Assembly (NCBI RefSeq): GCF_030268965.1
Contig: NZ_BSSE01000007.1
Coordinates: forward strand, 124,001 to 188,000
DNA length: 64,000 bases
Source of the DNA: Microtetraspora sp. NBRC 16547
Lineage (GTDB): Bacteria; Actinomycetota; Actinomycetes; Streptosporangiales; Streptosporangiaceae
Direction: 5' to 3'
In this document: piece after piece, positions 7,252-47,118 of the stretch
Layout of the letters: every line of letters begins with the position of its first letter
How positions within the stretch are numbered: the first letter of the stretch is position 1
The notes under the pieces: generated by a model
What the model saw: only the letters and a program-made list of their open reading frames with translations
Database searches by the model: none
What the model was told of the DNA's origin: nothing
Translations under genes and position numbers: made by a program

Positions 7252-8265
7252 ATGCCTGAGACCATGAAGGACTTCATCGCCGGACTGCCCAAGTGCGAGC
7301 TGCACCTGCACATCGAGGGCACCCTTGAGCCCGAGCTGAAGTTCGAGCTGGCGAAGCGGAACGGCCTGGCCCTGCCGTACGACACGGTCGAGGACATGCG
7401 GGCCGAGTACGACTTCGACGACCTGCCGTCGTTTCTGTCCGTCTACTACGAGGGCATGAACGTCCTGCGCACCGAGCCGGACTTCTACGACCTCGCCATG
7501 GCGTACCTGCGCAAGGCCGCCGCGCAGAACGTGCGGTACGCGGAGATCTTCTTCGACCCGCAGGCACACACCTCTCGTGGCGTGCCGTTCGACGTGCTGG
7601 TCCGCGGCCTGCGCCGGGCGCTGATCGACGCGGAGAACCAGCTCGGCGTCCGCGCCCAGCTCATCATGTGCTTCCTGCGTGACTTCCAGGCCGAGTACGC
7701 GATGGCGACGCTGCTGGAGTCGCTGCCGTACCGGGAGTGGATCGTGGGCGTCGGCCTGGACTCCGACGAGAAGGGTAACCCGCCGGCCAAGTTCGCCGCG
7801 GTGTTCGCCCGAGCCAGGGAGGAGGGCTACCTGCTGACCATGCACTGCGACGTGGACCAGGAGAACTCCACCGAGCACATCCGCCAGTGCGTCGAGGAGA
7901 TCGGCGTCAACCGGATCGACCATGGCGTCAACGCGCTGGAGGATCCGAAGCTCGTCGAGGCCATCAAGGAGCGCGGGCTGGGCCTGACCGTGTGCCCGAT
8001 CTCCAACCGGTACGTCACCGACTCGATGAAGGCCGACGCCATCCGGCGCATGCTTGACCTGGACCTGCGCGTCACGATCAACTCCGACGACCCGGCGTAC
8101 TTCCCGGGTTACGTGCAGGAGAACCTCGTCGCGATCCAGGAGGCGCTGGACCTGTCCCGCGAGGAGCTGGTCCGGCTCCAGCGGAACGCCTTCGAGATCA
8201 CTTGGCTGCCCCGCCAGGTGAAGGACGCCTACCTGGCCGAGCTGGACGCCTACGCCGCCTCCTAG
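7252..8265 (+). CDS. Adenosine/adenine deaminase-superfamily protein (Aah1-like) with altered active-site motif
   Basis: A 337-residue protein of the adenosine deaminase superfamily, closest by eye to the bacterial/fungal adenine deaminase subgroup. Shared features are HLHIEGTLEPEL (18-29), the FFDPQAHT block, IDHGV (about 222-226) and NSDDPAYFPGY (about 278-288). In canonical members the third metal histidine is followed by A-G-E, the Glu being the proton shuttle. Here residues 198-203 read HCDVDQ, so that Glu is replaced by Val with flanking Asp residues. Substrate could be adenine or another 6-aminopurine; operon position supports purine catabolism. Confidence 0.82.
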   Translation: MPETMKDFIAGLPKCELHLHIEGTLEPELKFELAKRNGLALPYDTVEDMRAEYDFDDLPSFLSVYYEGMNVLRTEPDFYDLAMAYLRKAAAQNVRYAEIFFDPQAHTSRGVPFDVLVRGLRRALIDAENQLGVRAQLIMCFLRDFQAEYAMATLLESLPYREWIVGVGLDSDEKGNPPAKFAAVFARAREEGYLLTMHCDVDQENSTEHIRQCVEEIGVNRIDHGVNALEDPKLVEAIKERGLGLTVCPISNRYVTDSMKADAIRRMLDLDLRVTINSDDPAYFPGYVQENLVAIQEALDLSREELVRLQRNAFEITWLPRQVKDAYLAELDAYAAS

Positions 8266-15213: not shown

Positions 15214-18200
15214 ATGGCAGGTGGCGGGTGGTTTCTCCGGTGGCCGGTGATCCGGCAGCTCCGTGGACAGGACGGCAGAGGCGAGGCCGCGCGGTCGGCG
15301 CGCACCGACGCCCTGCGGCCACGCGTCGAGGAGGCCGACAGCGTCGCCCGGTCCGTCTGCCCCTACTGCGCGGTCGGCTGCGGCCAGCTCGTCTACGTCA
15401 AGGACGGCAAGGTCAGCCAGATCGAGGGCGACCCGGACTCGCCCATCTCGCGAGGCAGACTGTGCCCGAAGGGGTCGGCCAGCAAGCAGCTCGTCACCCA
15501 CGCCGGCCGCCAGACGAAGGTGCTGTACCGGCGGCCGTACGGCACGGACTGGGAGCCGCTCGACCTCGACACCGCGATGGACATGATCGCCGACCGGGTC
15601 CTGCGCACCCGGCGGGACACCTGGCAGCAGGAGCACGAGGGCAGGGTCGTGCGCCGCACCCTGGGCATCGCCAGCCTGGGCGGGGCGACGCTCGACAACG
15701 AAGAGAACTACCTGATGAAGAAGCTCTACACCGCCCTCGGCGCGATCCAGGTGGAGAACCAGGCGCGCATTTGACACTCCTCCACCGTCCCCGGTCTGGG
15801 GGCCAGCTTCGGGCGCGGCGGCGCTACGACGTTCCAGCAGGACCTGGAACGCGCCGACTGCATCGTCATCCAGGGCTCCAACATGGCCGAGTGCCACCCC
15901 GTGGGCTTCCAGTGGGTGGTGGAGGCCAGGTACCGCGGCGCGAAGGTGTTCCACATCGATCCGCGCTTCACCCGGACCAGCGCGCTCGCCGACCGGTACG
16001 TGCCGATCCGCGTGGGCAGTGACATCGTCCTGCTCGGCGCGCTGATCAACCACGTCCTGGAGAACGAGCTGGACTTCCGTGAGTACGTGCTGGCCTACAC
16101 CAACGCGTCGATGATCGTGTCCGAGGAGTACCGCGACACCGAAGACCTGGACGGCCTGTTCTCCGGCTTCGACCCCGAGACGCGCACGTACGACCCGGCG
16201 ACCTGGTCGTACGAGGGAGCGCCCGAGGAGGCGGCGGCGGGGGAGCGCGCCGAGCAGATGGATCACGGCCGGGAGCACGCGGACATGGGCGGGCCCGACC
16301 AGTACGGCGCGGGCGGCGCGTCGGCGAATCCCCGGCCGATGAAGGACCCGACGCTGCGCCACCCGCGCTGCGTCTACCAGATCCTGCGGCGGCACTTCGC
16401 CCGTTACACCCCGGAACTGGTCGCGGAACTGTGCGGCATCTCCCCGGAGGACTTCGCCGAACTGGCCGAGACGGTCACCACGAACTCCGGCAGGGAGCGC
16501 ACCACCATGTGGGTGTACTCCGTCGGGTGGACCCAGCACACCGTCGGTGCGCAGTACATCAGGGCGGCGTCGATCCTGCAGTTGCTGCTCGGCAACATCG
16601 GGCGGCCGGGCGGCGGCATCCTCGCGCTGCGCGGTCACGCGAGCATCCAGGGCTCGACCGACATCCCGACGCTGTTCAACATCCTGCCGGGATACCTGCC
16701 GATGCCGCACGCGCACCAGCACGAGACCCTCGACGACTACCTGGCGAGGGCGGGCGGCGACACCGGGTTCTGGGGCAGGAAGCGCTCCTACATGGTGAGC
16801 CTGCTCAAGGCGTGGTGGGGGGACGCGGCGACCGAGGACAACGACTTCCGCTTCGACCACCTGCCGCGCCTCACCGGGGACCACGGCCACTACAGCACGG
16901 TCATGGGCCAGATCGACGGCACGGTCAAGGGCTACTTCGTGGTGGGCGAGAACCCCGCCGTCGGGTCCGCGGGCGGCCGGGCGCAGCGCCTCGGCCTGGC
17001 GAACCTCGAGTGGCTCGTGGTCCGCGACCTGACCCTGGTGGAGACGGCGACGTTCTGGAAGGACGGCCCCGAGCTGGAGACCGGGGAGATGCGCACCGAG
17101 GACATCGGCACCGAGGTGTTCTTCGTGCCCGCGGCCAGCCACGTCGAGAAGGACGGGACCTTCACCAACACGCAGCGGCTGCTGCAGTGGCGGGAGAAGG
17201 CGCTCGACCCGCCCGGCGACTGCCGTAGCGACCTGTGGTTCTTCTACCACCTCGGCAAGCTGCTCAAGGAACGGATCACTTCCGGCGAGATCGACCGGCC
17301 GCTGCGCGAGCTGACCTGGGACTATCCCGAGGAGGGCGTCCACGGGGACCCGTCGGCGTCGGCGGTGCTGCGGGAGATCGGCGGTGTCGGGCCGGACGGG
17401 CGCGCCCTGTCGGATTACACCGAGCTCAAGCCGGACGGGTCCACTCAGTGCGGCTGCTGGATCTACTGCGGGGTGTACGCCGACGAGGTCAACCAGGCGG
17501 CCCGGCGCAGGCCGGGGCGCGAACAGAGCCCCGAGGCACCCGAATGGGGCTGGGCGTGGCCGGCCAACCGGCGCATCCTCTACAACCGCGCCTCGGCCGA
17601 CCCCGAGGGCCGTCCATGGAGCGAGCGCAAGGCGTACATCTACTGGGACGAGAAGAAGGGCGAGTGGACCGGTCCCGACGTGCCCGACTTCGAGAAGACC
17701 AAGCCGCCGGGCTACCGGCCGCCGGAGGGCGCCCTGGCCGAGGCGGCGCTGTCCGGGACCGACCCGTTCATCATGCAGGCGGACGGTAAGGGCTGGCTGT
17801 ACGCGCCGGCGGGCCTGGTCGACGGGCCGCTCCCCGCGCACTACGAGCCGTTCGAGTCGCCGGTGCGCAATCCGCTGTACGCCCAGCAGGACAACCCGGC
17901 GCGGCGGATCTACCCGCGGCCCGAGTCGCCGTACAACCCGGTGGGGGCGCCGCGCTTCCCGTACGTGCTGACCACGTACCGGCTGACCGAGCACCACACC
18001 GCAGGCGGCATGAGCCGGCCGCTCGCCTACCTCGCCGAGCTGCAGCCGGAGCTGTTCTGCGAGGTGTCGCCGACGCTCGCCGCCGAGCTGGGCCTGGCGA
18101 ACGGCGACTGGGCCACGATCGTGACCAGCAGGACCGCGATCGAGGCGCGTGTCCTCGTCACCGAGCGCGTACGGCCGCTGCGGATCCAGGGGCGTACGGT

Positions 18201-18405
18201 TCACCAGATCGGCCTGCCGTACCACTGGGGGTGGGGCAGCGGCGGTCTGGTCACCGGCGACATCGCGAACGACCTGATGCCGCTCGCGCTCGACCCCAAC
18301 GTCTACATCCAGGAGAGCAAGGCGACGACCTGCGATGTCCGGCCGGGCCGGCGGCCACGGGGCAGGGACCTGCTCGCCCTGATCGAGGAGTACCGGCATG
18401 GCTGA
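15214..18405 (+). CDS. fdhA: Formate dehydrogenase alpha subunit with in-frame TGA for selenocysteine
   Basis: The molybdopterin/tungstopterin catalytic subunit oxidising formate to CO2. It is read here as 1063 residues with TGA 15772-15774 decoded as selenocysteine 187. An N-terminal Fe4S4 site is formed by VCPYCAVGCGQ and RLCPKG. Protein homology continues in the same frame on both sides of the TGA: ENQARI-U-HSSTVPGLGASFGRGG matches the metal-ligand U-H of E. coli FdhF/FdoG. The C-terminal molybdopterin-guanine-dinucleotide domain includes YRLTEHHTAGGMSR. No Tat signal is seen, so a cytoplasmic site is likely. It overlaps fdhB by eight bases. Full translation requires a working Sec pathway, which is in doubt here because of selA. 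Confidence 0.93.
15772..15805 (+). promoter_or_regulatory. SECIS-like hairpin following the fdhA TGA codon
   Basis: After the TGA at 15772-15774, a stem CCCC (15789-15792) and GGGG (15798-15801) closes a GGTCT loop (15793-15797), with an unpaired or wobble T just below the stem. E. coli fdhF SECIS has the same GGUCU loop and a bulged U bound by SelB. The distance from TGA to loop is 18 bases, the same as I count in E. coli fdhF from memory. This supports Sec decoding rather than a nonsense mutation. Confidence 0.85.
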
Positions 18406-19291
18406 GCGGATGGGGTTCTTCACCGACACGAGCATCTGCATCGGCTGCAAGGCGTGCGAGGTGGCCTGCAAGGAGTGGAACCAGCTTCCCGACGACGGGT
18501 TCGTGTTCGAGGCGACGTCCTACGACAACACGGCGGCGCTCGGGGCGAGCACGTGGCGGCACGTCGCCTTCATCGAGCAGCAACCCGTCTGGATGCCGGA
18601 CGGCGACCCGATGTCTCATGGCGGCCCTGTGCCTCATAGCGGTCCGATGTCTCATGGCGGCCCGATGCCCGACGGCGGCTCGATGCCTCATGGCGGCGAG
18701 TCCGTGTTCGAGGTCGGGCGGGACGGCCGCTGGCTGATGTCGTCGGACGTGTGCAAGCACTGCACGAACGCCGGATGCCTGGACGTCTGCCCGACCGGGG
18801 CGATTTTCCGCACCGAGTTCGGCACCGTGGTCGTCCAGCCGGACATCTGCAACGGCTGCGGCTACTGCGTGCCGGCCTGCCCGTTCGGGGTGATCGACCG
18901 CAGGGAGGGCGACGGCCGGGCGTGGAAGTGCACGATGTGCTACGACCGGCTGCGTGGTGGGCTGGAACCCGCCTGTGCCAAGGCCTGCCCCACCGACTCG
19001 ATCCAGTTCGGCCCCCTCGACGAGCTGCGCGAGCGGGCCGCGGCCCGGGTGGACACCCTGCATGCCGCGGGCCATACCGAGGCCCGCCTGTACGGCGAGA
19101 GCCCCGGCGACGGGGTGGGAGGAATGGGGGCGTTCTTCCTGCTCCTGGACGAGCCCGAGGTTTACGGCCTGCCGCCCGACCCTGTGGTGCCCACGCGGGA
19201 CCTGCCCGCGATGTGGGGCTGGGCCGGCGCCGCCATAGCCACCATGGCGGCAGCCGTCGCCGCCTCCTTCCTCGGCGGACGCTCCCGGTGA
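18398..19291 (+). CDS. fdhB: Formate dehydrogenase beta subunit (four Fe4S4 clusters)
   Basis: A 297-residue electron-transfer subunit. Four cysteine clusters can be read: CIGCKACEVACKEW, CKHCTNAGCLDVCP, CNGCGYCVPACPFG and CTMCYDRL with ACAKACP. A C-terminal hydrophobic helix (about 272-294) should anchor it to the membrane, as in FdoH/FdnH. Residues 72-101 are an unusual insert of five six-residue units of type M-S/P-H-G-G-P, encoded by an 18-bp tandem repeat. It overlaps fdhA by eight bases and is followed by the membrane subunit after 147 bp. Confidence 0.92.
   Translation: MAERMGFFTDTSICIGCKACEVACKEWNQLPDDGFVFEATSYDNTAALGASTWRHVAFIEQQPVWMPDGDPMSHGGPVPHSGPMSHGGPMPDGGSMPHGGESVFEVGRDGRWLMSSDVCKHCTNAGCLDVCPTGAIFRTEFGTVVVQPDICNGCGYCVPACPFGVIDRREGDGRAWKCTMCYDRLRGGLEPACAKACPTDSIQFGPLDELRERAAARVDTLHAAGHTEARLYGESPGDGVGGMGAFFLLLDEPEVYGLPPDPVVPTRDLPAMWGWAGAAIATMAAAVAASFLGGRSR
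18611..18700 (+). repeat. 18-bp tandem repeat, five units, inside fdhB
   Basis: Units at 18611-18628, 18629-18646, 18647-18664, 18665-18682 and 18683-18700 share the pattern ATG-C/TCT-CAT-GGC-GGC-CC, with substitutions. The repeat is in frame and codes for Met/His/Gly-rich hexapeptides. Such repeats can change copy number by slippage without breaking the frame. Confidence 0.9.
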
Positions 19292-20418: not shown

Positions 20419-21585
20419 TCAGCGCAGCCGCAGGGCGGCGCGGCCGGGGGCGACGAGCTCGCCGACGACCGGAGCGCCGGGAACCTCGCCCGCCACGAGC
20501 AGCCCCCCTGAGGTCTGCGCGTCGGCGAGGAGCAGGAGCTCCGCGTCGTCGCAGCGGCCCGGGTCGAGATGGGGCCGCACCCACGCCAGGTTGCGGCGGG
20601 TGCCACCGCTCACGTGGCCGTCCCGCACCGCCTCCCTCGCCCCCTCCAGGTACGGCACGGCCGCCACGTCGACCACCGCCGTGAGGCCGCTCGCCCTGGC
20701 CAGCTTGTACAGGTGGCCGAGGAGACCGAAGCCGGTCACGTCCGTGGCGCACTCGACCCCGGCGGCGAGCGCCGCCCGTGACGCGTCCCGATTCAACGTG
20801 GTCATCGCGTCGATCGCCTGCGGGAAGACGTCGCCGGTCGCCTTGTGCCGGGTGTTCAACACGCCGATGCCGAGCGGCTTGGTGAGGGAGATCGGCAGGC
20901 CGGGCCGTCCGCCGTCGATGCGCAGCAGCCGGGCCGGGTCGGCCAGGCCGGTGACGGCCATACCGTACTTGGGCTCCGGGTCGTCCACGCTGTGACCGCC
21001 CGCCACGTGGCAGCCCGCCGCCCGCGCGACGTCGAGGCCGCCGCGCAAGACCTCCCTGACGAGCTCCATGGGCAGCGTGTCCCGAGGCCAGCCGAGCAGG
21101 TTGACGGCCACCAGCGGCTCACCGCCCACCGCGTACACGTCGGACAGGGCGTTGGTGGCGGCGATCCGCCCCCAGTCGTACGGATCGTCCACGACGGGGG
21201 TGAAGAAGTCGGCTGTCGCGACGACCGCCCGGCCGTCCTCGATCCGGACCACGGCGGCGTCGTCCCCGTCGTCCAGCCCGACGAGCAGCTCACCGATGGG
21301 GGAGAAAACGTCACCCCGCCGCCTGGTGTGCCCTGGACGGTCGATGAGGCCGGAGACGATGGCCTCCAGCTCTCCGGGCGGGATCTTGCAGGCGCAGCCG
21401 CCTCCGTGGGCGTACTGCGTGAGCCGTACGGCCCCGTTCGGGTGTGGCGCTCCGGCAGCCGGGGAGCTTTCCGGGTTCCCGGCGCCTCCCGGGCCGTTCC
21501 CCGGGCTGTGCTCGTCGGTCCCCTGGTTGTTCTCCGTGCCGTGTCCCGACGTGGGGGATCCGTGCTCCGTGGTCGTTCCGGTCAT
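20419..21585 (-). CDS. selD: Selenide, water dikinase SelD
   Basis: A 388-residue selenophosphate synthase making selenophosphate from selenide and ATP. The catalytic loop reads GGGCACK, with Cys (not Sec) at the nucleophile position and the essential lysine retained. DVYAVGGEPLVAVNLLGWP and CHVAGGHSVDDPEPKYGMAVTG are typical. The first 55 residues form a low-complexity Gly/Pro/Thr-rich extension; conserved sequence starts near VRLTQYAHGG, so a later start is possible. It converges on the formate dehydrogenase genes and diverges from tRNA-Sec, forming a compact selenium cluster. Confidence 0.94.
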   Translation of the reverse strand: MTGTTTEHGSPTSGHGTENNQGTDEHSPGNGPGGAGNPESSPAAGAPHPNGAVRLTQYAHGGGCACKIPPGELEAIVSGLIDRPGHTRRRGDVFSPIGELLVGLDDGDDAAVVRIEDGRAVVATADFFTPVVDDPYDWGRIAATNALSDVYAVGGEPLVAVNLLGWPRDTLPMELVREVLRGGLDVARAAGCHVAGGHSVDDPEPKYGMAVTGLADPARLLRIDGGRPGLPISLTKPLGIGVLNTRHKATGDVFPQAIDAMTTLNRDASRAALAAGVECATDVTGFGLLGHLYKLARASGLTAVVDVAAVPYLEGAREAVRDGHVSGGTRRNLAWVRPHLDPGRCDDAELLLLADAQTSGGLLVAGEVPGAPVVGELVAPGRAALRLR

Positions 21586-21678: not shown

Positions 21679-21771
21679 GGAGGTGTCTGGGCGCCTGGTG
21701 GCCCCCACGATCTTCAAAATCGTTGAGGTCGAGAATCTCGGCCTGGCGGGTTCGATTCCCGTCCGCCTCCG
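21679..21771 (+). tRNA. selC: tRNA-Sec (anticodon TCA)
   Basis: A 93-base tRNA. A perfect 5-bp anticodon stem ACGAT/ATCGT closes the loop CTTCAAA, giving anticodon TCA at 21714-21716. A long variable arm has a 7-bp stem (GGTCGAG with CTCGGCC, one G-T pair). The T arm is GCGGG-TTCGATT-CCCGT. The acceptor stem GGAGGTG pairs with CGCCTCC and G73 follows; the eighth bacterial Sec-type acceptor pair is mismatched. CCA is not encoded. It reads UGA and is charged first with serine, then converted by SelA. Confidence 0.95.
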
Positions 21772-22106
21772 CTACCAGGCAAGGTACTCCGGAAGCCATG
21801 TCCGCTGATCACATTTCCCCGCAGAAGTGATCTTCTCGGAGGCCCGATGGGAACAAATGGGGAACATCGCGTCACGGCCGTGTTCCTGTGATTCCGTCCG
21901 TCCCGTGAGGAGCGCCACGACTCTCTCGGCTGCGTCATCACGACGCGGGCGGCAAGCTCGTCGAGAGACCCGACGACGAACCCCAACCCGAGGCAGCCTA
22001 AAAGATCTTGATCCCAGGTCTTGACTATTGCTCCCGCCGATCGTGAATTCCTTCAACGCAGGAAAATGGGTACAAACCTCGCCGGATTCGGTGCAAGGCT
22101 GAGCGC
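21772..22106. other. 335-bp intergenic stretch downstream of tRNA-Sec
   Basis: No convincing gene. Short antisense open frames here end inside the tRNA and are artefacts. tRNA 3' ends are common integration sites, and the next gene (a solo TOPRIM protein) looks accessory, but I found no integrase and no clear second copy of the tRNA tail in the window. Confidence 0.5.
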
Positions 22107-43390: not shown

Positions 43391-44373
43391 GCCAGATCGG
43401 GTTCCTGGGCGCCTTCCTCGGCGGGCTGCTGTCGTTGGTCAGCCCGTGCTCCGCACTGCTCCTGCCGTCCTTCTTCGCGTACGCCTTCGAGCGGGTCGGC
43501 ACGCTCGCCCGGCGCACGATGGTGTTCTATGCCGGGCTCGCGGTCGTGTTGGTGCCGCTCGGCGCCGGGGTCGGCGCCGTCGGAGCGCTGATCACCCGCT
43601 ATCGCGACGTCACGACGACGGTCGGAGGGATCGTACTGATCGTCCTCGGCGCCGCCGCGATCCTGGGCAAGGGCTTCGGCCTGGCCGCCGCACAGCGGGC
43701 GACGGCCGGCATCCGGATCTCCTCAACGGCGTCGGTGTTCGCACTCGGCACGGTCTACGGCCTGGCCGGATTCTGCTCGGGGCCGCTGCTCGGCAGCGTG
43801 CTGACCGTCTCCGCCGCCGGTGGTGAACCGATCTACGGCGGCGCGCTGATGGCGCTCTACGCGCTCGGCATGGCCATGCCGCTGTTCTTCCTCGCGCTGT
43901 TGTGGGACCGCTTCGACCTCGGCCGCAAGACGTGGTTGCGGGGCAAGCGGATCCGCCTCGGCCCGCTGCGCACGCACAGCACCAGCCTGATCTCCGGGCT
44001 GCTGTTCGTCGGCATCGGCGTGCTGTTCCTGGTCACCGACGGCACCGCCAACCTCGGAAGCATCTCCAGTGTGGACGACCAGTTCTCGCTCCAGGTGTGG
44101 CTGAAATCCGTGGCCGGTCACGTGCCCGACACCGCACTGCTGCTGGGCGTGGTGACGGTCGTCCTCGCCGTCCTCCTGGTGCGCCTGTACCGCGCCCGCA
44201 GTGGCCGTGTCCACGATGGTGACCAGGCCGACGGTGACTGTGGTGCCCATGATGGTGACCGTGTCCATGATGGTGACCATGCCCACGATGGCAACAGTGC
44301 CGGGGATGCCGACCGGGGAGCGGCCGCTGAGAGCGCCGGTGACACCGGGACGGACGGTTCGGCGAACCGCTGA
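43387..44373 (+). CDS. CcdA/DsbD-type transmembrane electron carrier with HDGD-repeat tail
   Basis: A 328-residue membrane protein of the cytochrome c biogenesis (CcdA/DsbD-beta) family, with about six helices. Helix 1 has SLVSPCSALLLPSFFAYAF and helix 4 GLAGFCSGPLLGSVLTV, supplying the two membrane cysteines that relay electrons. A hydrophilic C-terminal tail (about 272-328) is rich in His, Asp and Gly, with repeated HDGD motifs that may bind metal. Cotranslated with the DsbA-like gene, so the pair forms a thiol redox relay. Confidence 0.9.
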   Translation: MSQIGFLGAFLGGLLSLVSPCSALLLPSFFAYAFERVGTLARRTMVFYAGLAVVLVPLGAGVGAVGALITRYRDVTTTVGGIVLIVLGAAAILGKGFGLAAAQRATAGIRISSTASVFALGTVYGLAGFCSGPLLGSVLTVSAAGGEPIYGGALMALYALGMAMPLFFLALLWDRFDLGRKTWLRGKRIRLGPLRTHSTSLISGLLFVGIGVLFLVTDGTANLGSISSVDDQFSLQVWLKSVAGHVPDTALLLGVVTVVLAVLLVRLYRARSGRVHDGDQADGDCGAHDGDRVHDGDHAHDGNSAGDADRGAAAESAGDTGTDGSANR

Positions 44374-44494: not shown

Positions 44495-45292
44495 GTGGAT
44501 CAACGCAGACGGGTGCCCCGTACCGACGCCGTCCTCGCGGCTCCGGAGCTGGTCGCGGCGCAGGGAAGGCTCGGGCGGGCGGCGGTCAAGAAGGCCGTCG
44601 CCTCCGCTCAGCGGCGCGTACGGCAGGGCGAACTCGGCCCGGACGAGGTCGTCGGCGCGGCGGTGGCCGCGCTGCCCCCGCGCGCCACGAGCCTCCGTCC
44701 GGTGATCAACGCGACCGGGGTGCTGCTGCACACCAATCTGGGTCGGGCACCCCTGTCGGCGGCGGCGATCGACGCGGTGACGGCGGCCGCGGGTCCGACT
44801 GATGTGGAGTTCGACCTGGTACGCGGGACGCGGGCCAGGCGCGGGCGCGGAGCGATGGACGCGCTGGCCCAGGCCGTGCCCGACGCCGAGGACGTGCATG
44901 TCGTCAACAACAACGCCGCCGCCCTCGTCCTGACCCTGGCGGCCCTGGAGGCCACCCTGCGCGGACCCGTGCCGCCGCTCGGCGAGGCCTTGCACGCCGA
45001 CCCGGAGGCGCTCGCGGCGCGCGCCGCCGTCCTCGCGGGCACGCTCGCCGAGGCCGGGCTCGACGCGCGGGCCGTGCCCAGCGAGGCGAACGTGGGCGGC
45101 GGGGGCGCGCCCGGCGTCACACTGCCGAGCGCCGCGGTGAGCCTGCCGGAGCGGTTCGCCGGCCCCCTGCGCACGGGCGAGCCGCCGGTCGTCGGCAGGA
45201 TCGAGGGCGGGCGGCTCCTCATCGACCTGCGCGCCGTCCCGGGGACGCGGGACGGCGACGTGGCGCGGGCGGTTCTGGCGGTGGAGGGCTGA
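44495..45292 (+). pseudogene. selA: L-seryl-tRNA(Sec) selenium transferase, internally deleted
   Basis: The open frame is 265 residues, whereas SelA is normally about 430-460. The N-terminal domain (RRRVPRTDAVLAAPEL; RPVINATGVLLHTNLGRAPLS; VHVVNNNAAALVL) and the C-terminal part (LTLAALEATLRGPVPPL; ANVGGGGAPGVTLPS) are intact, but they join directly at about residue 146. About 170 residues are missing, including the PLP-lysine motif (S-G-D-K-L-L-G-G-P-Q in homologues). The frame is preserved. Such a protein should be unable to bind PLP. The cause could be a real deletion, possibly between short LTLAAL-like repeats, or an assembly collapse. It is coupled to selB. Confidence 0.88.
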
Positions 45293-47118
45293 TGCACGTC
45301 GTGGCCACGGCAGGGCATGTCGATCACGGGAAGTCCACGCTGGTGCGCGTGCTCACCGGCATGGAACCGGACCGGCTGGAGGAGGAACGGCAGCGCGGCC
45401 TGACGATCGAGCTCGGATACGCCTGGACGACGCTGCCTTCGGGGGAGCGGCTGGCGTTCGTGGACGTCCCCGGGCACGAGCGGTTCCTCGCGACGATGCT
45501 GGCCGGGGTGGGTCCGGCACCCGCTGTGATGTTCGTGGTGGCCGCCGACGAGGGCTGGATGCCCCAGTCGGAGGAGCATCTGGTGGCACTGGAAGCCCTC
45601 GGCGTACGGCACGGCCTGCTCGCCGTCACCCGCGCGGACCTCGCCGACCCCGGGCCCGCGATGGTACGGGCGGCGACCCGGCTGGCGGAGAGCGGCCTCG
45701 GATCCGTGGAGCGGGTCGCGGTGAGCGGACGCACCGGCCAGGGGCTGACGGGGCTACGGGCGGCGCTGGACCGCCTCGTGGCCGGGTTGCCCACGCCCGA
45801 TCCCCGCGCGCCGGTGCGGATGTGGATCGACCGCGCGTTCACCGTGCGAGGCAGTGGCACCGTCGTTACGGGGACGCTGCCGGCGGGAACGGTCGCGACC
45901 GGCGACGAACTGGCGCTGGCGGCCGGCACGGTGCGCATCCGCGCGGTCGAGTGCCTGAACGAGGCAGTGCCCTCGGCGACCGGTGTCGCCCGGGTGGCGC
46001 TCAACCTGCGCGCCCCCGCCGCGCCGGAACGGGGCCAGGCCCTCGTCACCCCGGGGGCGTGGACCTGGACCGCTGCCGTCGACGTGCGGATCTCTCCGGT
46101 CGGGGGTGCGGTCGAGCATCTGTCCGACGTACAGGGTCTGCCGCCGCGACTGACCGCGCACATCGGTTCCGCTGCCGTGGTGTGCGAAGTACGGCCACTC
46201 GGCGGGCGGATCGCCAGGCTTCGTCTGGCCCGTCCGCTGCCGCTGCACGTGGGGGACGTGTTGCTGCTGCGCGACCCCGGCCACAGCCCCGGAACCGGCC
46301 CAAGAATCGGCGCGAGAATCGGTGCGAGAACCGGCGTGGGAACCGGTGTGAGGGTGTTGGCGGGCGCGACCGTGCTCGACGCACGGCCGCCCGGGCTACG
46401 CCGCCGGGGCGCGGCCAGGGAGAGGGCCGTCGACTTGACCGCCGCGACGCCGGACGCCGGATCCCTGCTGCGGACGCACCGGCTGCTGCGCGGGGGTGAC
46501 CTGCGGGCAATGGGATGCGCACCTCAGGGGAGGCCGGTGTCCGGGGACTGGCACGCTGATCCCGCATACTGGTCCGGGCTGCGGGAGCGGCTGTCCGGCG
46601 CGGTGCGGCGGTACGCGGCGGCGCACCCGTTGGAGCCGGGGATGCCGGTCGACGTGGCACGGCAGGAGCTCGGCCTGCCGGACCGCCATCTCGTCACGGC
46701 CCTGGTCGAACCGCCGCTGGCCGTCGCGGGTGGTCGGATCGTCAGCGGGTCCTCCGGCCTGCCCGCGCCCGTGGCGGCGGCGGTGGAGCGTCTGCGCGCC
46801 GAGCTCGCCGCCCGGCCCTTCCTCGCTCCAGAGGCGGGACGGTTGGCCGAGCTGGGGCTCGGTCCCAAGGAGGTGGCGGCGGCCGTGCGGACGGGCGCGC
46901 TGCTACGGGTGGCCGACGGCGTGGTGCTCCCAGCGGGGGCGGACGTCCGCGCGGCGGAGCTGCTGGCCCGCCTGCCCCAGCCGTTCACCGTCAGCGAGGC
47001 GAGAAGGGCGCTGGACAGCAGCCGTCGGGTCATGGTGCCGCTGCTGGAGCACCTCGACCGGAGCGGACTCACCGAACGCGTGGACGAACTGCATCGGCGG
47101 TGCCGTACGCCCCGCTGA
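45292..47118 (+). CDS. selB: Selenocysteine-specific elongation factor SelB
   Basis: A 608-residue translation GTPase that delivers Sec-tRNA to UGA codons. The G1 motif is GHVDHGKST (8-16), followed by the switch region RGLTIELGYAW and G3 DVPGHERF; domains II and III follow. The C-terminal winged-helix domains (about 400-608) that bind the SECIS include LAARPFLAPEAGRLAELGLG and VSEARRALDSSRRVMVPLLEHLD. Around residues 330-355 a Gly/Arg/Thr repeat (PRIGARIGARTGVGTG) looks like a recent insertion. It starts at ATG 45292, overlapping the selA stop by one base. Confidence 0.93.
   Translation: MHVVATAGHVDHGKSTLVRVLTGMEPDRLEEERQRGLTIELGYAWTTLPSGERLAFVDVPGHERFLATMLAGVGPAPAVMFVVAADEGWMPQSEEHLVALEALGVRHGLLAVTRADLADPGPAMVRAATRLAESGLGSVERVAVSGRTGQGLTGLRAALDRLVAGLPTPDPRAPVRMWIDRAFTVRGSGTVVTGTLPAGTVATGDELALAAGTVRIRAVECLNEAVPSATGVARVALNLRAPAAPERGQALVTPGAWTWTAAVDVRISPVGGAVEHLSDVQGLPPRLTAHIGSAAVVCEVRPLGGRIARLRLARPLPLHVGDVLLLRDPGHSPGTGPRIGARIGARTGVGTGVRVLAGATVLDARPPGLRRRGAARERAVDLTAATPDAGSLLRTHRLLRGGDLRAMGCAPQGRPVSGDWHADPAYWSGLRERLSGAVRRYAAAHPLEPGMPVDVARQELGLPDRHLVTALVEPPLAVAGGRIVSGSSGLPAPVAAAVERLRAELAARPFLAPEAGRLAELGLGPKEVAAAVRTGALLRVADGVVLPAGADVRAAELLARLPQPFTVSEARRALDSSRRVMVPLLEHLDRSGLTERVDELHRRCRTPR

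Follow-up and report, generated by a model that had tools for sequence, protein, structure and literature searches.

Bacterial Sec decoding requires SelA. The locus described here, part of a window of 64,000 nucleotides of Microtetraspora sp. NBRC 16547 (the whole stretch of DNA that we analysed), raises the question of how this rule applies to a genome in which a selA gene without its catalytic core accompanies fdhA, selB, selC and selD genes that look intact. An earlier interpretation, made from the letters of the window and here called the sequence-only reading, had presented the case as a Sec pathway whose selA lacks its catalytic core and had named three options: that Sec synthesis was lost recently, that a further selA or route exists, or that the assembly collapsed at short repeats. 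The relevant features of the window are as follows.

44495..45292, + strand: native selA, with an internal in-frame deletion and the catalytic core missing (265 aa, GTG start)
44926..44935, + strand: deletion junction in selA, V145 / LTLAALE, placed to within a few nt by comparison with G002 and G001
45290..45294, + strand: TGATG, in which the end of selA overlaps the beginning of selB (possible translational coupling, inferred)
45292..47118, + strand: native selB, 608 aa, intact open frame
21679..21772, + strand: native selC, tRNA-Sec with anticodon TCA (identified by ARAGORN; 71.4 bits in Rfam against a gathering score of 47)
20419..21585, - strand: selD, selenophosphate synthetase, with AIRS and AIRS_C domains
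15217..18405, + strand: fdhA, with an in-frame TGA (Sec) at 15772-15774 (start approximate)
15772..15819, + strand: the UGA and a conserved SECIS-like stretch, CCCC-GGUCU-GGGG at 15789-15801

As references for the deletion we used the full-length SelA orthologues of G002 (429 aa) and G001, both members of the same genus, and both ends of the window protein align with them. V145 of the window protein is joined directly to LTLAALEATLRG, the open reading frame runs stop-free across ...VHVVNNNAAALVLTLAALEATLRG..., and 164 codons (492 nt) have been lost in frame; the loss of about 170 residues that had been proposed was therefore correct as to frame and slightly too large. Pfam recognizes the N-terminal domain PF12390 at residues 4-43 (40 bits), and PF03841 matches the gene as two pieces, corresponding to positions 1-83 and 276-366 of 367. 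From an alignment to Aquifex SelA (structure 3w1h, positions counted by hand), the missing part corresponds approximately to Aquifex residues 148-318, and the window protein has no equivalents of Ser217, Ser282, Asp284, Lys285 (the PLP lysine), Arg312 and Arg315; only those of Arg86 and Arg119 are retained among the eight named active-site positions, whose functional roles, including that of Lys285, are described in the available portion of PMC4607533. The absence of the core and of the PLP-lysine motif was thus borne out by alignment to G002, G001 and 3w1h. Lacking the PLP-binding lysine and the selenophosphate-binding arginines of functional bacterial SelA, the 265-aa product is almost certainly incapable of forming Sec alone. 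At 44190-44373, directly upstream of selA, a membrane-protein ORF (CcdA-like by eye) ends in a repetitive HDGD-like tail.

The other Sec genes of the window gave no indication of damage, and the earlier description of fdhA, selB, selC and selD as intact agrees with the TGA, domain, ARAGORN, Rfam and ORF checks. The window fdhA contains one in-frame TGA and no other, and a single in-frame TGA is also present in its counterparts in 6 of the 7 relatives that were searched; at E 1e-100 nothing was matched in the seventh, G242. In G003 there is an additional, stop-free homologue. Over the 48 nt starting at the TGA, four of the six relatives are identical to the window and the remaining two differ at 1 and 2 positions, compared with 74-95 identical third positions of 100 on each side of this stretch. 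The CCCC-GGUCU-GGGG element resembles the E. coli fdhF loop. Its predicted folding energy is unexceptional (z = 0.50; 141 of 200 shuffles were equally or more stable), and conservation is the better evidence for this SECIS-like stretch. An adjoining gene for a putative Fe-S subunit, at 18398-19291, carries a repetitive MSHGGPMPDGG-like insert.

A PF03841 search of the organism's own genome, a draft assembly of 7.82 Mb in 151 contigs, located a full-length selA on contig C8 (G000:C8:234721-235740) within a cassette of the order selC, selA, selB (L024 10394-13531). The headline of a Sec pathway without an intact selA falls with this observation, which is of the kind that the sequence-only reading had itself named as counter-evidence, and the option of another selA is the one of the three that stands. 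The C8 protein is 426 aa in length and matches PF03841 from position 1 to 366 of 367 at 353.8 bits and PF12390 at 40.7 bits; its selC lies 27 nt to the 5' side of selA, and selB overlaps the end of selA. By hand count on the 3w1h alignment it retains the equivalents of Arg86, Arg119, Ser217, Ser282, Asp284, Lys285, Arg312 and Arg315, so that both the full-length family match and the active-site residues of functional bacterial SelA are present. The strings TASGDKLLGG, KVHPSNY and ARALRVDK all occur in this protein, and none occurs in the 265-aa window product. We infer that the cassette is expressed and that its SelA acts on both tRNAs, in which case the C8 enzyme would form Sec-tRNA(Sec). Because the PF03841 search recovered a full selA copy, there is no need to invoke a new route to Sec, and the apparent exception to the SelA requirement is removed. 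The C8 gene contains 33-nt imperfect direct repeats flanking the core, and exchange between such repeats was considered as a source of the deletion; we rejected it because in-register removal predicts a loss of 513 nt in that gene, not 492.

The aldehyde dehydrogenase gene just upstream of the C8 cassette is 93-96% identical to its counterparts in G001, G002 and G003, and 98% identical to that in G041. Since the gene adjoining the cassette matches three genomes of the same genus at this level, contig C8 belongs to the organism and was ruled out as a contaminant. In all four genomes the aldehyde dehydrogenase match ends before the cassette, and among the five genomes of the flanking-gene search only G012 contains cassette DNA at >80%. 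A third, decayed copy is present on contig C2 (L029 6275-7892) as a selA fragment of 35 aa and a selB whose frame is broken; an ORF that overlaps this relic matched no Pfam family. Also, a third above-cut-off tRNA-Sec match in the genome, on C34, proved to be tRNA-Ser by ARAGORN, and an fdhA-type search of the genome revealed no second FdhA with a UGA.

A SelA tree of 108 rows, from which we dropped matches of <300 query residues, further matches at a place already represented and rows identical to one another, but in which the shorter window row was kept, splits the two selA genes. The window SelA clusters with those of G002 and G001 and one G041 copy (SH-aLRT 100), and this group sits in a large clade composed mostly of Streptosporangiaceae. 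The C8 SelA clusters with the two G012 copies (SH-aLRT 100), and its cassette type is also found in G012, G247 and G242, besides the relic on C2. Copies of the cassette are at the following places.

L024 10377-13531: cassette on contig C8
L060 5851-8981: cassette copy
L145: cassette copy
L146: cassette copy
L061 7640-9067: cassette copy
L029 6275-7892: decayed copy on contig C2

The DNA similarity between contig C8 and contig C22 of G012 spans 3.1 kb with a sharp end on each side, and in G247 and G242, where selC likewise lies just upstream of the C8-type selA, the identity is 88% and 83% over the part of the cassette present. The cassette, as selC-selA-selB or selC-selA, recurs in three genera at about 83-90% identity, and at the places where the comparison included both flanks its ends are sharp, as they would be in a mobile element. 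Its patchiness across genera and its sharp ends suggest that the C8 cassette was probably acquired laterally, although this cassette type may instead be an ancient paralogue that was lost in most lineages. Of 35 inverted pairs, the 25 listed include no convincing terminal repeats; one 18-nt, 78% inverted pair lies near both cassette ends and could be due to chance. G247 contains both selA types, each full length. In G012 there are only two PF03841 matches, both of the C8 cassette type, and next to one of these selA copies lie a selD, another selC and a selB gene. A native origin of the latter selC and selB is not borne out, the SelB being 51% identical to the window SelB and 59% identical to the C8 SelB. 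Between this tRNA-Sec gene of G012 and the selB, which is unlike both types of the window genome, is a rhodanese-like ORF (L061 10239-10721).

In a PF03841 survey of 150 genomes of the family, taken out of a larger group, 100 genomes were matched, and the pattern of both ends in frame with the core missing was seen only in the window genome. Full-length matches, by our own criteria, numbered 94 among 120 loci, some of which are duplicates of one place. Apart from the two rows of the window, the others lie at contig ends, are diverged, slightly short or frame-broken (L095), or are long without the motif string, and the deletion pattern of the window is absent from all other rows of these 120 loci. 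An order-wide search covered 345 genomes, at least 233 of them with a match; none of 16 weak or multi-match genomes that we rechecked, among the matches listed, has the truncated form. Within the C-terminal part of the G301 SelA (L155 from 1294), a long Pro-Ala-rich repeat is inserted in frame.

We consider that the native selA is a partial-deletion pseudogene and that a complete second cassette, probably gained laterally, supplies SelA, such that FdhA is still made with Sec; on the sequence evidence described above we give this reading a probability of about 0.88. According to this reading, the Sec genes of the window would be the vertically inherited set, to which a second selC-selA-selB cassette was added, probably by lateral transfer. 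The C8 SelA would then make Sec-tRNA(Sec) from Ser-tRNA(Sec), using selenophosphate supplied by the SelD encoded in the window, and FdhA would continue to be made with Sec. Redundancy of this kind would have permitted the native selA to lose its core by the 492-nt in-frame deletion, and its frame may have stayed open through TGATG-coupled translation of selB. The cassette presumably came before the deletion, and its lateral gain probably made the native selA dispensable; the synthesis of selenoproteins has probably not suffered. As expected for a pseudogene that arises through redundancy, the genome contains an intact equivalent, the C8 selA, and the case is most likely one of ordinary gene loss by redundancy.

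Of the other explanations, the one with most in its favor, which we nevertheless regard as unlikely, is that the truncated ORF has been retained for a non-catalytic role, either solely as a translated leader to which selB translation is coupled via TGATG or as a partner that binds tRNA(Sec) and modulates the second SelA. The deletion is exactly in frame, and the N-terminal domain and the C-terminal part are retained; yet about one-third of random deletions would be in frame anyway, and the form occurs in no other genome inspected, whether at the family loci or in the 16 rechecked genomes among the matches listed. The end of selA overlaps the beginning of selB here and likewise at 72 of the 93 loci that carry the two genes on the same strand, a count in which starts were extrapolated and some genomes entered repeatedly (18 more loci have no selB, and 2 have the genes on opposite strands); perhaps this overlap couples selB translation to selA and thereby constrains the ORF. 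In G001, selB matches in two frames at L027 about 8040-8052, which is either a frameshift or an assembly error. Codon changes in SelA, when polarised, are still conservative: on the window branch 9 alter the amino acid and 24 are silent, compared with 7 and 20 on that of G002 (Fisher p = 1.0, from few changes). A neutral gene should have a fraction of about 0.67-0.70 amino-acid-changing, compared with 9/33 (95% interval 0.13-0.46) for the window SelA, and by our own arithmetic the upper limit of 0.46 is compatible with neutral change along as much as about half of the window branch. There is no excess of amino-acid changes, and therefore either the deletion is recent (falling roughly in the later half of the branch) or constraint on the ORF persists. 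The truncated ORF is free of signs of decay, a pattern that a long-dead pseudogene would not show; however, a gene that had lost its core recently would appear just as conserved. It is most improbable that the 265-aa product is expressed and useful as a dead SelA that binds tRNA(Sec), mixes or competes with the second SelA and balances the two Sec sets.

An assembly artefact, with the native selA in reality full length, is also very doubtful. The assembly is a draft in 151 contigs, but the join is in frame, the contig that contains the window is 260 kb, and collapse at short repeats is unlikely because, judging from the relatives, the parental sequences at the join probably had only about 3 nt in common, far less than the repeats at which an assembler collapses sequence. 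We assign the lowest probability to loss of Sec synthesis with fdhA due to decay. The core of the native SelA is indeed gone, but this explanation is unsupported because a full-length selA is present on C8, in a complete second selC-selA-selB set; also, the UGA region of fdhA is conserved, and changes on the window branch of SelB are mostly silent (23 amino-acid-changing to 70 silent, compared with 22:34 on the G002 branch).

In relation to bacterial SelA in general (L-seryl-tRNA(Sec) selenium transferase; PF03841/PF12390; structures 3w1h and 8uzw), the C8 copy is a member of full length in which the active-site positions are conserved, and the window copy is a truncated homologue from which the core (about 148-318 in Aquifex numbering) is absent. 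We found no account of a truncated selA with an intact spare in the literature searched, and the available portion of PMC13188914 contains nothing on such a case. Transfer of selA-selB-selC clusters between lineages is described in the accessible parts of PMC1273633, PMC1794560 and PMC5029168, and the C8 cassette type likewise appears as a compact cluster of Sec genes; it differs in that it shares a genome with the organism's own Sec genes, where no second UGA-bearing FdhA was found. The window genome may exemplify the displacement of a resident gene by a second Sec cassette: both types are found in G247, the resident gene of the window genome is broken, and G012 has the cassette type only. 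In Helicobacter pylori and H. acinonychis, according to the portion of PMC4607533 available, SelA has lost the N-terminal tRNA-binding domain and mostly kept the catalytic residues, and the other sel genes are gone; selA is partly lost there as it is here, but in the window genome the catalytic core was lost and the N-terminal domain kept, and a second full set is present. Two Yersinia pestis strains, as reported in the accessible part of PMC1273633, have a frameshifted selB, a recent loss with the partners kept. As in the window, one gene of the pathway is broken while its partners and the UGA-bearing fdh gene stay; in contrast to those strains, the window genome probably retains decoding, because its second copy of selA is intact.
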